From Streptococcus constellatus subsp. constellatus (GTDB taxonomy: Bacteria > Bacillota > Bacilli > Lactobacillales > Streptococcaceae): 64,000 nucleotides of DNA. The DNA is taken from contig NZ_AP014647.1 of NCBI RefSeq assembly GCF_023167545.1, positions 992,001 to 1,056,000 of the forward strand, written 5' to 3'. The translations under genes and the position numbers were made by a program. A model generated the notes under the pieces. The model made no database searches. It was given only the letters and a program-made list of their open reading frames with translations, and was not told where the DNA came from. Positions 7,945 through 54,618 of the stretch are shown here, one piece after another. Position 1 is the stretch's first letter. Each line of letters opens with the position of its first letter.

Positions 7945-8242
7945 CTTTTTTTAAAAATAGAATTGATCTATTGAGCACAGGGAGCGTCCGCCCGGCTGAT
8001 GGACGAAACTCGTTTCTAGGTAGACTGTCCGCCCGGCGGAAAAAGTCAACTTGTTGTCAGGCAACGTTTCAGCCCGGCTGACAGAATAAACTGATTTCTA
8101 GGGAAGCCGTCTGCCCGGCGGACAGGGCAAATCTGTTTTTAGGCAAGTCGTCAGCCTGGCTGATGAACGAAACTCGTTTTCAGACAAGTTATCGACCAAG
8201 TTGATGAAGTGAACTGCTTTTGGTGCAGATTGTCGCCCATTG
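7945..8242. repeat. Degenerate tandem array with an exact 41-bp period (array 1)
   Basis: Units begin at 7986, 8027, 8068, 8109, 8150 and 8191, with a partial unit at 8232 and a decayed one at 7945; every step is exactly 41 bases. Each unit opens with a dyad of the form TCnGCC-n-GGCnGA and closes with a tail like AAACTnGTTTCTAGGnAAG. Dyad arms differ between units but still pair: TCCGCC/GGCGGA at 8027, TCAGCC/GGCTGA at 8068 and 8150, ATCGAC/GTTGAT at 8191. The units are richer in GC than the flanks. A period of 41 excludes a repeated coding motif. I do not recognise this element. Confidence 0.85.
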
Positions 8243-8268
8243 AAAAATACACCTCACTATTGTATAAT
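8240..8268 (+). promoter_or_regulatory. Promoter of the YbaK-type editing gene
   Basis: TTGAAA (8240-8245), a 17-base spacer and TATAAT (8263-8268) lie directly after the last partial unit of the 41-bp array. The AAAGGAGG ribosome site of the next gene follows. Confidence 0.75.
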
Positions 8269-15619: not shown

Positions 15620-15772
15620 TATGCACCTCCTATGAATTTTACGGGTTCCCCCTAATTTTGTGAAGACTCGCCTAGCATCGTGGGACGAACCACTTATGAC
15701 GATGTTCGAGCGGTTGCACAGGCTGTGCATAGTCAACTCTCTAAGTATAGCATTTCTAGAATTATTTGACAA
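15620..15772 (-). promoter_or_regulatory. rplU promoter and L21 leader RNA
   Basis: Read leftward, TTGTCA (complement of 15767-15772), a 17-base spacer and TATACT (complement of 15744-15749) give a start near 15737. The transcript then carries about 118 bases of leader with a TGCACAG/CTGTGCA-type hairpin, a second stem around CATCGT/ACGATG, and a purine-rich stretch before the ribosome site. Size, position and structure fit the Firmicutes L21 leader, an autoregulatory element that probably binds L21. The assignment to that Rfam family is from memory. Confidence 0.75.
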
Positions 15773-31235: not shown

Positions 31236-31337
31236 AACGACATCTCCTCCTTGCTTTATTTTAGCATATTTTTTAGTAGCAGGAAAGCGTTATTTGTATT
31301 ATTTAAAATGAGTCTGGGACAATAGTCCCTTTGCTAC

Positions 31338-31368
31338 AAAAAAAGCAACGGATTTGCCGTTGCTTTTT
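31338..31368. terminator. Hairpin terminator inside the left end of the IS1182 element
   Basis: AAAAAGCAACGG (to 31351) pairs with CCGTTGCTTTTT (31357-31368) over a 5-base loop, with A and T runs at the two sides. It would stop read-through transcription into the transposase gene. Confidence 0.75.
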
Positions 31369-31431
31369 GCATGGTTGCGATAGTCTTGGTAAAATAGAAT
31401 TGCCCAATAAACCATTTAGAAAGGCTATCCC

Positions 31432-32958
31432 ATGCATATTCACTATAACACAAATCAAACAACTTTACCACTAGAAATCAGTTCTTTCTTGCCACAAGAC
31501 CATCTCGTCTTTACTATTGAAAAAGTGGTGAATGCCTTGGAGGATCGTCACTTCCACACGTTCTATCATAACTTTGGTCGCCCGTCTTATCACCCTAAAA
31601 TGCTTTTAGCCGCTCTACTATTTGCCTACTCGCAAGGGATTTTCTCTGGACGAAAAATCGAAAAAATGATGATTGAAAATCTGGCTATGCAGTACCTAAC
31701 AGGACAGTTGGTTGTCAGCTACCGCACTATCAATCGATTTCGAGTCGCTAAAGGGATGGAAGACCTCATTCGTGATCTTTTCATTGACCTCAATCTTCGT
31801 TTAAAAATGGAAGAGTTAGTGACCTTAGATTGTCTGTTTATTGACGGGACTAAGATTGAAGCCAACGCTAACAAGTATAGTTTCGTGTGGAAAAAGGCCA
31901 CAGACAAGTTTTCCGTCAAACTTCAAGAACAGATACAGGTCTATTTTCAAGAAGAAATCACTCCCCTTATCCATCAGGCCATTAGGCTGGACGAAGAAGA
32001 ACCGATTGCTTCAGAGCAGTTGATTGAATTCGCTCAAGTCCTCGAAGAAGAATTGGAAAAACTGAACCAAGACATTGAGGAGACACCCGTTAAAGGAAAG
32101 GATGAACGTAAAACTCAACGTCGGAAACTCAAGAAAGTCCTGCGTAAAGTCAAGGATGATTTTTCAGTACGTGCTGAAAAATATGAAGGCTACCAAGAGA
32201 CATTTGAAGGGCGTAACAGCTTTTCCAAAACAGATACAGATGCCACTTTTATGCGGATGAAAGAAGACCACATGAAGAATGGTCAACTCAAGGCTGCTTA
32301 CAATCTTCAAATCGCTACTGAAAATCAATTTGTTCTTCATTATGATGTCTTCTCAAATCCGACAGATACCAAGACTCTCCTGCCATTCCTTGAAACTTAT
32401 CCACATGACTTGAAGACCGTTGTCGCAGATGCCGGCTATGGAAGTGAAGAGAACCTCCTTCGTTTAGATGAAAATGAGGTGAACCATCTGATTAAATATG
32501 CCATGTTTGATCAGGAACAGAAGAAAGGGTATAAACAGTCGGCTAGAAACTTAGCGAATTGGTACTATGATGACAAGGAGGATAGCTACACTCATCCTGA
32601 TGGCTGGTGCTATCGTTTTCATCATATCAAACATCAGAAAACACAGACGGACTTTCAACAGGAAATCAAGGTTTACTACGCTGATGAACCTAAATCAGCC
32701 CCTCAAAAGGGACTATATATCAACGAACGTTATCAACACTTAAAAGCTAAAGAATGCCAAGCGCTTTTCTCTCCCGAAGGTAGACAGATTTTCAATCAAC
32801 GTAAGATTGATGTGGAACCTGTCTTTGGGCAGATAAAGGCTTATTTGGGTTACAAGAGATGTAACCTAAGAGGCAAGCGTCAGGTGAAAATTGACATGGG
32901 TTTAGTGCTCATGGCCAATAATCTCCTTAAATACAATAAGAGAACGACTCAAACTTAA
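31432..32958 (+). CDS. IS1182-family transposase
   Basis: A protein of 508 residues with the DDE transposase layout of the IS1182 family. The N-terminal DUF772-like region (GRPSYHPKMLLAALLFAYSQG) is followed by LDCLFIDGTKIEANANKYSF (first acidic site), TVVADAGYGSEENL (second) and RKIDVEPVFGQIKAYLGYKRC (third). The frame is unbroken and starts behind an AAAGG site. The C-terminus (LVLMANNLLKYNK) is typical. Confidence 0.93.
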   Translation: MHIHYNTNQTTLPLEISSFLPQDHLVFTIEKVVNALEDRHFHTFYHNFGRPSYHPKMLLAALLFAYSQGIFSGRKIEKMMIENLAMQYLTGQLVVSYRTINRFRVAKGMEDLIRDLFIDLNLRLKMEELVTLDCLFIDGTKIEANANKYSFVWKKATDKFSVKLQEQIQVYFQEEITPLIHQAIRLDEEEPIASEQLIEFAQVLEEELEKLNQDIEETPVKGKDERKTQRRKLKKVLRKVKDDFSVRAEKYEGYQETFEGRNSFSKTDTDATFMRMKEDHMKNGQLKAAYNLQIATENQFVLHYDVFSNPTDTKTLLPFLETYPHDLKTVVADAGYGSEENLLRLDENEVNHLIKYAMFDQEQKKGYKQSARNLANWYYDDKEDSYTHPDGWCYRFHHIKHQKTQTDFQQEIKVYYADEPKSAPQKGLYINERYQHLKAKECQALFSPEGRQIFNQRKIDVEPVFGQIKAYLGYKRCNLRGKRQVKIDMGLVLMANNLLKYNKRTTQT

Positions 32959-42471: not shown

Positions 42472-42506
42472 GGTTTTCACCTCTTTTTTATTTTTAGAGA
42501 AAAACA

Positions 42507-42662
42507 AGAGCGGACTTGCTAACGCAAGTCCGCTCTACATGATAGTATTTCATTCCTGAAACTTAATCCGTAGAGCCAGACAACGTTAGTCGCAAGGCGA
42601 GAAGTTCTCACTTCTGCTTTTCTCAACTTTTATATAATATCAAGTTTTGGATTATTTGTCAA
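42507..42662 (-). promoter_or_regulatory. infC operon promoter, leader and attenuator hairpin
   Basis: Read leftward: TTGACA (complement of 42657-42662, overlapping the cmk stop), 17-base spacer, TATTAT (complement of 42634-42639). A leader of about 120 bases follows with a GAGAACTTCTC hairpin, then a 13-bp perfect stem (AGAGCGGACTTGC, complement of 42536-42524, with 42519-42507) and TTGTTTTTC. The last is an intrinsic terminator placed before the infC ribosome site. This is the form of an attenuation leader like those of L20/IF-3 operons in Firmicutes. Confidence 0.7.
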
Positions 42663-52035: not shown

Positions 52036-52063
52036 GCTGGAATCACTCCAGCCTAGTTTTTTT
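52031..52063 (+). terminator. Terminator of the murT-gatD-lapA operon
   Basis: ACTAGGCTGGA (52031-52041) pairs with TCCAGCCTAGT (52047-52057) over five bases, followed by seven T. It overlaps the stop codons of both the LapA-like gene and the leftward MFS remnant. Confidence 0.92.
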
Positions 52064-52262
52064 GTATTCTCTTTTGACAGATATAGGAAAGAAAAGCCAG
52101 TCCCATCACACCCAGACCAATCAAAAGAAAGGAAAGGGTGTGGACACTCGGCAGGAGAATCATCAGAAAAGTCGCAGGAGGCATGAAAAGAATTGCCAGC
52201 GTGTAGATCGTTGAGAAAACTCGGCCAACCGCTCTTTCAAAACTACCTTCCAGCCCCTTTGT
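52053..52262 (-). pseudogene. C-terminal remnant of an MFS-type permease
   Basis: Read leftward, an open frame without a start ends at TAG (complement of 52053-52055). It encodes about 68 residues beginning KGLEGSFERAVGRVF, then two hydrophobic segments (STIYTLAILFMPPATFLMIL and TLSFLLIGLGVMGLAFLSY) and a basic tail (CQKRIQKN). This is the last two helices of a 12-helix major facilitator protein. The rest of the gene is absent, and the homology stops where the second 41-bp array begins. Confidence 0.7.
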
Positions 52263-52264
52263 TC

Positions 52265-52715
52265 GGATTCTACTTTCGGACGAGCCTCATTTCGTCAAAA
52301 TCTTATCGGCTGAAAATCGGAAAAGGCAAATTCCACAAAAAGAACTCGTCCGAAAATAGAAAGTTCGGGATTTGCTCTCAGACTAACCGTCCGAAAATCT
52401 GACAGAGTCATTTTGCTCCAAAATAGCTTTTCAGAAAATCTGACGGGCTGACTTTTCTTTAAAAGAACCTAGTTTGCATGAAGAATGCTTTCTTTTCCTC
52501 GAAAAAATCTCAGAACATATGTAAAAGTTCGCCTTTTGCTCTCAGGGAAACAATTCTTCATGAAGGATTTATCTTTTTGTCACAGAATCAGAGATTTCAC
52601 ATATAAAAATTCGGGTTTTGCTCTTTTAGGACTGATTTCACATGTGAAATTAAGTATTTTGATCTCTGGGAAGCTCATTTCTCACAGAAACTAGGCATTC
52701 TTACACAGGTTCTTT
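52265..52715. repeat. Second degenerate tandem array with a 41-bp period (array 2)
   Basis: Units lie at 52265, 52306, 52347, 52388, 52429, 52470, 52511, 52552, 52593, 52634 and 52675, 41 bases apart. CGTCCGAAAAT recurs at 52347 and 52388. AGTTCGGG/CC-TTTGCTCT recurs at 52362, 52526 and 52608 (spacings 164 and 82, multiples of 41). Several units hold a dyad near unit position 9: TTTCACATGTGAAA (52634 unit), CTTCATGAAG (52552), ACATATGT (52511). Tails such as TCTCTGGGAAGC resemble those of array 1 (TCTAGGGAAGCC). No ORF of note. Function unknown. Confidence 0.75.
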
Positions 52716-52722
52716 TTCCTTC

Positions 52723-54618
52723 TCACACCTTCTCCGCCAGTTCTTCCCATTCTAGCATGGCTTCTTCTTGGGCGGCGGTCAACTGGTCGATTTGCTGCTG
52801 GCTCTCCATGAGTTCACTGGCATCATTAGTAGCCTGCATAGCTTCCTGAAGCTGACTGATCTGACTATCCAAGTCCTCGATTTGCGCTTCCAATTGCTCT
52901 AGGCGACGGGCCAGCCGGCGCTGTTCTTTCTGGTTTTCCTTTTGGAGCTGATAGTCATTGGCAGGGGCAGGTTTGTCAGGACTAGCCTGCTCTGACTCCT
53001 CACGCAAGGCTTCCTGCTCTGCCTTTTTCTCCAGATAGTAGTCATAATCACCCAGATAAAGGGTGGAGCCTGTCTCAGAAAGCTCGATGATCTGGGTGGC
53101 CACGCGATTGATAAAGTAACGGTCGTGGCTGACAAAGAGTAGGGTGCCGTCAAAGTCAATCAGGGCATTTTCCAGCACTTCCTTGCTGTCAATGTCCAGG
53201 TGGTTGGTCGGCTCGTCTAGGATGAGGAAGTTGTTGTTTTCCATTGACAACTTTGCTAGAATCAGCCGCGCCCGCTCTCCACCCGATAGCATGCCGATCG
53301 ACTTCTTGACATCATCACCCGAGAAGAGGAAAGCGCCTAAGCGATTGCGAATCTCGACCTCTGGCGTCAGCTTGAAGTCATTCCATAGCTCATCGAGAAC
53401 CGTATTGCTGGGAGTCAGTTTGCTCTGAGTCTGGTCATAGTAGCCCACTTCCACATTAGCCCCCAACTGCTCCTTGCCTCTGATGAAGGGCACTTGACCG
53501 ATTAGTGATTTAATCAAGGTCGTCTTCCCAATCCCATTTGGCCCGACAATAGCTACCGCATTGAACTTGCGAATGTCAAGGTTAATCGGCTCTGACAGGA
53601 CTTCCTTTCCGTAGCCAATAGCTGCGTCTTCCAAGGTCAGCACAACATTGCCCGAAACCTTATCAGATCTGAAGGTCATATTAGCCGAGCGGCCGCCGGT
53701 TTCTGGTCTGTCCAAACGCTCCATCTTTTCCAGCTGCTTACGGCGAGACTGAGCCCGCTTGGTAGTAGAGGCCCGAACTAGATTGCGATTGACAAAGTCC
53801 TCTAGCGCAGCAATTTCTTTCTGTTGCTTTTCGTAATTCTTAGCTTCAGTGGCTAACTTCTGCTCCTTTTGGACCACAAAACTGGAGTAATTGCCTACAT
53901 AGCGATCCAAGGAATGCTTGGTCAAATCCAGCATGATAGTCGCAACCTTGTCTAGGAAATAGCGGTCATGACTAACGATGATCAAGGCACCGCTGTAGTT
54001 GATTAAGTAATTCTCCAACCAGGCAATGGTTTCGATATCCAAGTGGTTGGTCGGCTCGTCCAAGACCAGCAGTTCTGGCTTCTCCAACAGCATCTTAGCC
54101 AGAGCCAGACGGGTGTTCTGCCCGCCTGACAGCTCAGAAATCTTCATCTGCCACATGGACTGGTCAAACTTGAAGCCATTCAAAATAGCTCGAATATCAG
54201 CTTCATAGGTAAAACCACCCTTTTGTCGAAATTCCTCTGACAGCTGGTCATACTGGGTCATGAGAGCCGTCAGCTCTTCCCCTGACAATTCTCCCATTTG
54301 CAGCTCCATCTGCCGCAACCTCTTCTCTTGCTGACGCAGACTATCAAAGACCAGCAGCATCTCGTCGTAGATAGTATTCTCCGACTCAAAGCGGCTGTCC
54401 TGAGCCAGATAGGACAGGGAAAGATCTCGTTTTTTATTAATCTGACCAGAAGTAGGCTCTTCCTCGCCCACCAAAATCTTGAGCAGGGTTGACTTCCCAG
54501 CTCCATTTTTACCAACGAGGGCAATCCGATCACCCTCATCCACCTGCAGGTTAATATTGTTAAAAAGAAGCTCCCCTGCAAAAGAGCGTTCAATCTTATT
54601 TGCTTGTAAAATAATCAT
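52723..54618 (-). CDS. ABC-F family ATPase (Uup-like)
   Basis: A protein of 631 residues with two ATPase domains and no membrane part. Domain 1 has GKNGAGKSTLLKIL and LSGGQNTRLALAKML. Domain 2 has GPNGIGKTTLIKSL and LSGGERARLILAKL. They are joined by a linker of about 80 residues (the P-site interaction motif region), and a C-terminal coiled coil rich in Gln and Glu (about 550-631) follows. ABC-F proteins bind the ribosomal E site and rescue or regulate translation; some give antibiotic resistance. The coiled-coil tail places it near Uup/YfmR rather than a known resistance type. Confidence 0.93.
   Translation of the reverse strand: MIILQANKIERSFAGELLFNNINLQVDEGDRIALVGKNGAGKSTLLKILVGEEEPTSGQINKKRDLSLSYLAQDSRFESENTIYDEMLLVFDSLRQQEKRLRQMELQMGELSGEELTALMTQYDQLSEEFRQKGGFTYEADIRAILNGFKFDQSMWQMKISELSGGQNTRLALAKMLLEKPELLVLDEPTNHLDIETIAWLENYLINYSGALIIVSHDRYFLDKVATIMLDLTKHSLDRYVGNYSSFVVQKEQKLATEAKNYEKQQKEIAALEDFVNRNLVRASTTKRAQSRRKQLEKMERLDRPETGGRSANMTFRSDKVSGNVVLTLEDAAIGYGKEVLSEPINLDIRKFNAVAIVGPNGIGKTTLIKSLIGQVPFIRGKEQLGANVEVGYYDQTQSKLTPSNTVLDELWNDFKLTPEVEIRNRLGAFLFSGDDVKKSIGMLSGGERARLILAKLSMENNNFLILDEPTNHLDIDSKEVLENALIDFDGTLLFVSHDRYFINRVATQIIELSETGSTLYLGDYDYYLEKKAEQEALREESEQASPDKPAPANDYQLQKENQKEQRRLARRLEQLEAQIEDLDSQISQLQEAMQATNDASELMESQQQIDQLTAAQEEAMLEWEELAEKV

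Follow-up and report, generated by a model that had tools for sequence, protein, structure and literature searches.

Why should two intergenic stretches of one Streptococcus genome, different in sequence, repeat at exactly the same step of 41 bp and carry palindromes in register with it? The question arises from a window of 64,000 nucleotides of Streptococcus constellatus subsp. constellatus (contig NZ_AP014647.1, positions 992,001 to 1,056,000), the whole stretch of DNA analysed here, in which the two loci, array 1 and array 2, rank first and second for self-identity at a lag of 41 in a 200-bp sliding scan. A reading made from the letters alone (the sequence-only reading) had taken them for members of a dispersed system with a constant layout and a variable palindrome. 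That proposal is supported: the outer TC...GA and an A-rich linker are kept, and the inner stem covaries. Arrays of this kind are, moreover, strongly associated with genes of DUF6261 (PF19775), a family of unknown function on which the link provides a first functional handle; the same link accounts for a group of repeats found between the genes of oral streptococci.

Periodic arrays upstream of DUF6261 genes

A covariance model that takes the stem into account (R2, built without array 2) recognizes arrays in 11 of 284 Streptococcus genomes. Ten of the 11 have DUF6261, ten carry one array directly upstream of a DUF6261 gene, and in five (G006, G048, G232, G235 and G237) this is the sole R2 place. 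The converse test was therefore made from the side of DUF6261, which occurs in 90 of the 284 genomes, 88 of them above the curated cut-off. From 143 DUF6261 rows, 98 distinct genes, picked by rank and choice and not at random, were examined through 102 loci yielding 99 open reading frames (ORFs; L167 and L189 are the same gene, and L227, L235 and L239 are without an ORF), and the upstream period was scored for 97 genes, L219 being left out because its upstream sequence is too short. The best period among lags 25-80 was 41 (41 regions) or 42 (36 regions) in 77 of the 97 distinct regions, and a strong period (score of at least 0.5) was found in 59, always at 41 (34) or 42 (25). By comparison, only three of 188 upstream regions of control ORFs from the same loci reached 0.5, at 42, 56 and 57; these controls are ORFs of at least 150 amino acids, some perhaps not genes, and their best lags of 41 or 42 below 0.5 are not counted. 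Downstream of DUF6261, two of 95 regions reached 0.5, at 52 and 63 and none at 41 or 42, and the best lag was 42 in six and 41 in none.

The association extends to another genus of the order, where six of the seven DUF6261 genes of G307 have 41- or 42-bp arrays of quite different sequence. The period is clustered on the DUF6261 protein tree (15 changes against 31.7 after shuffling, none of 500 shuffles coming down to 15), and the palindromes likewise vary by gene lineage. Short motif rules divide the proteins into the sub-families TIRPL (35), NEF (31), LRH (13) and other (20). We refer to the arrays that accompany DUF6261 genes as home arrays; the genome studied has one at 914 kb (41 bp) and one at 323 kb (42 bp). 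The latter belongs to a TIRPL-type gene 1.4 kb away, which is not a match in the upstream test; between them lies an ORF (L092:3597-4529, about 323.6-324.5 kb) that we take to be an IS30-like transposase. In L255, from a genome with 12 DUF6261 matches (G066), 42-bp units hold two different palindromes about 21 bp apart, in a half-step layout. A 75-amino-acid open frame crosses the home arrays of L013 (1607-1834) and L015 (1483-1710) on the strand opposite DUF6261, and is probably a by-product of the repeat.

Unit architecture and the identity of array 2

The anatomy of the unit was derived from 146 distinct units pooled from four genomes. Relative to a 15-bp dyad, TC at -6,-5 and GA at +5,+6 are 98-99% constant and AA at +14,+15 is 97-99% constant; the three inner stem positions vary. 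Watson-Crick pairs at distances 2, 3 and 4 nevertheless stand at 97%, 86% and 56%, against 52%, 64% and 37% in shuffled units, 58 cells are changed on both sides against 24.5 in shuffles (48 unit pairs), and the covariation score of 0.309 (shuffled 0.134) was reached in none of 500 shuffles, although related units are not independent and these covariation numbers overstate the evidence. The signal emerges on pooling several genomes; in an initial set of 22 units, in which one stem type predominated, covariation was no better than in shuffles. At least six stem types exist (CGC, CGA, GAC, GCT, AGA and AGC), and several of them are mixed inside single arrays (L115, L120, L129 and L130). One locus upstream of DUF6261 carries a run of CGC-type palindromes in one species (L108) and GAC-type palindromes in related species (L128, L137). 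Among non-Watson-Crick stem pairs on the coding strand of home arrays, 92 are G.T and 98 A.C, which shows no RNA-strand bias. A second dyad in the linker was considered and rejected, its pairing being about equal to shuffled or lower.

Array 2 (Table 1) can be placed within this family. When it was compared by BLAST with the sequences upstream of the 99 DUF6261 ORFs, 24 matched at E≤1e-4, 22 of them NEF and two (L200, L202) untyped because their ORFs were read too short for the sub-family motif; the best match scored 71.4 bits, against a maximum of 34.3 bits for shuffled array 2 (60 trials). The two halves match different kinds of NEF home array, and among the right-half matches is L188, the NEF gene of the same genome at 914 kb. 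These sequence matches identify array 2 as a composite, dispersed member of the NEF sub-family. Array 1 matches six upstream sequences (five genes), all LRH, so that the two arrays, which the sequence-only reading had put into one dispersed system, belong to two sister sub-families.

The period itself is unambiguous at both loci. Lag 41 is the top lag among 2-169 in array 2 (identity 0.45, positions 52240-52720) and in array 1 (0.588, positions 7980-8260), as the earlier reading had expected, and dinucleotide-shuffled versions of array 2 gave a lag-41 mean of 0.264 and maximum of 0.341 (2000 trials) and a maximum of 0.357 at any lag of 25-80 (500 trials). Of the repeated words reported for array 2, CGTCCGAAAAT is present 41 bp apart at 52347 and 52388, and AGTTCG..TTTGCTC at 52362 and 52526; a third copy, at 52608, differs by one letter (AATTCG). 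The dyads ACATATGT, CTTCATGAAG and ATTTCACATGTGAAAT were found where they had been placed, with centres at 52518.5, 52560.5 and 52642.5, and two further dyads to their left, GTCCGAAAATCTGAC and TTCAGAAAATCTGAC, had been missed; all five are in register with the 41-bp period. With a score of 30, Tandem Repeats Finder detects array 1 and not array 2, which is thus a degenerate, worn member of the family. The R2 model matches two units of array 2 exactly in register, albeit weakly (23.8 bits, E 3.7e-5 in a 2-kb search), and its top matches at the orthologous place in L046, L047 and L048 score 25.6-26 bits (E 3-4e-4 in 60.8 kb). A single simple sequence family for arrays 1 and 2 was rejected: R1, a model of GC-type units, is blind to array 2, which R2 alone sees. 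At the gathering threshold, Rfam has no match at either array; its matches elsewhere in the window are the SpF25 small RNA (31334-31435), an L20 leader (42496-42625) and an L21 leader (15654-15725).

Table 1. Features of arrays 1 and 2 and the genes beside array 2, in window coordinates
Feature	Position	Strand	Basis or remark
Array 2	52265..52690	.	About nine degenerate units of 41 bp; ABC-F gene (3' end) on one side, truncated MFS gene on the other
Array 2, left half	52310..52455	-	Matches CAGATTTTCTG-type home arrays of NEF-type genes: L179 (8.6e-15), L178 (2.5e-14), L186 and others
Array 2, right half	52490..52660	-	Matches CACATGTG-type NEF home arrays: L194 (6e-13), L180 (5e-12), L188 (4e-10), L198
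Dyad GTCCGAAAATCTGAC	52389..52403	.	Sequence
Dyad TTCAGAAAATCTGAC	52430..52444	.	Sequence
Dyad ACATATGT	52515..52522	.	Sequence
Dyad CTTCATGAAG	52556..52565	.	Sequence
Dyad ATTTCACATGTGAAAT, perfect, 16 bp	52635..52650	.	Sequence
Two units with dyads TC-NNN-nnn-NNN-GA (CGA-AAA-TCT, AGA-AAA-TCT)	52388..52469	+	Covariance model R2
About two units, 82 bp, exact ends ambiguous	52529..52610	.	In this genome and S. sanguinis KO16 (L047); not in L046, L048 or G009 (BLAST breaks)
ABC-F type ATPase gene (presumed from its sequence), 631 amino acids, flanks array 2	52723..54618	-	ORF
3' remnant of major facilitator superfamily (MFS) transporter gene	52041..52226	-	Alignment to L047; name from sequence
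Array 1	7985..8230	+	Six 41-bp units, dyads of GTCCGCC C GGCGGAC type

Orthologues of array 2 are present in S. sanguinis (L046-L048) and in G009, a S. sanguinis-like genome whose single 41-bp array in a 400-kb one-contig sample is this one. A small protein encoded next to array 2 shares 98-99% identity with four S. sanguinis records. The adjoining MFS gene is mostly deleted in the genome studied: window positions 52041-52226 align to L047 10265-10450, and from 52230 the alignment resumes at L047 12447; L047 and L048 of S. sanguinis keep the gene at full spacing. That array 2 is no fixed component of the flanking genes is shown by S. gordonii L055, which has other sequence without the period at this place, and by G174, from which the array is absent. 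Neither this kind of fixation nor a missing lag-41 peak, the two outcomes named beforehand as fatal to a dispersed system, was thus found.

The genome-wide search that had been suggested found more arrays, at least eight in all in the 1.9-Mb single contig: apart from arrays 1 and 2 and the home arrays, 41-bp arrays lie at about 224, 616, 950 and 1858 kb, located by pattern search, BLAST with array 1 and model search of sampled stretches. In three relatives six to ten each were seen. Among 52 sampled stretches (20 kb each, five genomes), 41 is the most frequent period, with 25 of the 93 rows that score at least 0.46, and the other frequent periods (21, 63, 66, 78 and 15) are multiples of three, like coding repeats; many stretches were picked for a model match, and the counts are no estimate of density. 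The arrays whose surroundings were examined are intergenic, apart from small overlapping ORFs (61-87 amino acids) that were set aside as spurious, and in sanguinis-group species the dispersed ones separate unrelated genes; array 1 itself has a metal-sensing repressor gene (PF02583) on one side and a tRNA_edit gene (PF04073) on the other. By simple ORF calls, six of eleven placed dispersed loci, array 2 included, lie between convergent genes, five between genes of the same direction and none between divergent ones. Array orientation was dropped as a clue to transcription, as the units are near-symmetric and strand calls flip within arrays. Many loci bear arrays alike in G000, G062, G121 and G288, with differing numbers of units. 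Short dispersed BLAST matches of array 1 were discarded as copies of a repeated element or chance; one such chance match, at about 31471-31489 of the window, recurs in at least nine other places of the genome with identical surroundings where shown, and probably represents insertion-sequence copies.

How DUF6261 and its arrays may act

The DUF6261 protein is about 250 amino acids long and basic, with a median isoelectric point of 9.06 and values above 8 in 91 of the 99 ORFs. The predicted structure of a metagenomic relative, P0001 (not the protein of this genome), is all-helical, with a mean pLDDT (predicted local distance difference test) of 84.8; a fold search with this model gave no confident match and no family stood out, and a search of solved structures by sequence returned nothing credible. 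A Pfam scan found DUF6261 alone above the curated cut-off, with no toxin family and no other domain, and PADLOC and NCBIfam gave weak matches only, of 12-17 bits. By database names, the relatives among the matches listed come from Capnocytophaga, Chryseobacterium, Bergeyella, Aerococcaceae, S. suis and S. massiliensis.

On balance, we think it probable that DUF6261 and its arrays form a chromosomal protein-plus-array system acting on DNA, within which array 2 would be a dispersed, partly decayed DUF6261-type array; the binding, oligomer and autoregulatory steps are our suggestions. The arrays would be bound in DNA form, each palindrome by one dimer or oligomer unit of the protein; the home array would serve autoregulation and the dispersed arrays would offer extra loading sites. 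A step of 41-42 bp corresponds to four turns of B-DNA, a spacing that would set all bound units on the same side and that favours an alignment of proteins along duplex DNA. Since the letters of the inner stem change while remaining paired, also among units of a single array, it is probably the symmetry or the folded form of the palindrome, along with the constant edges (TC...GA and the A-rich linker), that the protein recognizes, and not the stem sequence. DNA binding appears the likeliest activity, ahead of the REPtron-like activity and the RNA leader weighed below.

The fate of arrays where DUF6261 is missing bears on this reading. G174 is a close relative with flanks 91-94% identical and no DUF6261 match. 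In its version of the array at 950 kb, 52 of 93 aligned letters are preserved and 153 of 246 are missing, beside flanks at 300/330 and 283/302; in G288, which has DUF6261, 166 of 175 letters are kept and 71 are deleted, with flanks at 301/330 and 296/302. At array 1, G174 has a decayed remnant, and at array 2 only the outermost bases are left. Two observations weigh against a dependence of the arrays on the protein: G008, also without a DUF6261 match, retains the last array 2 units with a perfect dyad, and G174 still holds one degenerate array.

A bolder version, which we put forward tentatively, sees an undescribed class of gene plus repeat, in which DUF6261 would read the folded or symmetric shape of the palindrome and keep, copy or move the units, each gene lineage having private palindromes and no known transposase. 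A rather unlikely alternative is a mobile or self-maintaining system of the REPtron kind, in which DUF6261 would act on hairpins that the palindromes form in single-stranded DNA; by copying, moving or repairing units it would let arrays spread and keep palindromes perfect. Such activity would suit a gene accompanied by related palindromes in dispersed places, stems that are paired and free in sequence, the mixed stem types of L115, L120, L129 and L130, unit numbers that vary among relatives and the swapping of entire unit runs at one locus across species (L108 against L128 and L137). Most array loci, however, are common to four array-rich genomes, so any movement must be old or rare, and no transposase, nuclease or HuH domain was found in the protein. 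Nor was DUF6261 matched in phage and plasmid collections (one query, P0048) or in viral contigs (alignment A4). Target-site duplications were looked for at empty sites and none was found: clean empty sites with such duplications did not appear, G174 having remnants, and the array-1 locus, searched in 98 genomes, showed no clean empty site among the rows examined.

To an RNA system we give less credit still. Here the home array would be transcribed ahead of the gene and its repeats would be a regulatory or antitoxin-like RNA, as in type III toxin-antitoxin loci; the upstream position of the array would suit this, as would the extended -10 element (TGnTATACT) that immediately precedes the array at L161, L137, L128, L167, L013, L015 and L170, all of LRH type. 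Hairpin-T-run terminators stand between array and gene in 21 of 30 loci with 42-bp and six of 34 with 41-bp arrays, by a crude scan that is noisy and compares stretches of unequal length. The stem mispairs noted above, read as RNA on the coding strand, are not richer in G.U than in A.C, an argument against selection for RNA hairpins; dispersed arrays are without an adjoining DUF6261-family gene, and DUF6261 has no toxin-family match above cut-off. Ordinary minisatellites, born of slippage and unequal recombination and linked to DUF6261 by descent without function, are very improbable, for although higher-order duplications (L116) and unit indels are visible, unlike array sequences share a step of 41 or 42 bp even in a second genus, the stems covary, and the array that G288 retains is worn in G174.

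Relation to known repeat systems

In openly licensed papers of PubMed Central, no description of a link between DUF6261 and arrays and no report of a 41-bp repeat in Streptococcus, tandem repeats of S. sanguinis included, was found, and DUF6261 appears in one row of a mutation table. The closest comparison is with REPtrons, in which repetitive extragenic palindromes (REPs), or the mosaic elements built from them (BIMEs), pair with REP-associated tyrosine transposases (RAYT, or TnpA-REP); CGTC-tagged REPs without a known partner are also described (PMC8266576, PMC3733652). REPtrons share with the DUF6261 system a chromosomal gene, related palindromes adjoining it and dispersed copies, and the CGTC start of LRH units and some NEF units, as in CGTC-tagged REPs, is a lead only. 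Unlike REPtrons, DUF6261 arrays run head-to-tail at 41/42 bp, and the gene beside home arrays is PF19775 alone at the curated cut-off, with no HuH domain found. The GTAG or CGTC tag of REPs stands unpaired beside the hairpin; in the DUF6261 arrays CGTC sits at the stem base, its TC paired with GA in 96-97% of LRH-type units, and the 42-bp dyads listed are without it.

Type III toxin-antitoxin systems (ToxIN, CptIN and TenpIN) resemble DUF6261 loci in that a single gene is preceded by tandem repeats (PMC8860590), perhaps also, as the crude scan hints, in a terminator that some loci have between the two. On the other side, DUF6261 is not ToxN-like, its palindromic repeats have no RNA-strand bias and many arrays are gene-less. 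BOX elements of S. pneumoniae and S. suis (boxA-boxB(n)-boxC; RepSU1) are reported to be nearly absent from other streptococci (PMC3049150). They too are intergenic streptococcal repeats with variable tandem inner modules, and are set apart through defined end modules, with no partner gene named in that description (PMC3049150). A CRISPR array has identical repeats and unlike spacers, whereas here dyad and linker both repeat; cas genes were not searched for.

Plasmid iterons and parC-like sites are helically phased, and the proteins that bind them are encoded nearby. Iteron and operator arrays are thus like DUF6261 arrays in having phased sites near a protein gene, if DUF6261 does bind its own; unlike iterons, DUF6261 arrays are chromosomal, with a longer step, a free inner stem sequence and dispersed copies. 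A fixed helical step with changing yet paired stems is an unusual signature, and raises the question of how a protein keeps recognizing a site whose core sequence is ever-changing. The layout recalls both REPtrons and type III toxin-antitoxin systems, the partner protein of each was sought and not found, and the arrays upstream of most DUF6261 genes examined point to an undescribed protein-plus-repeat system.
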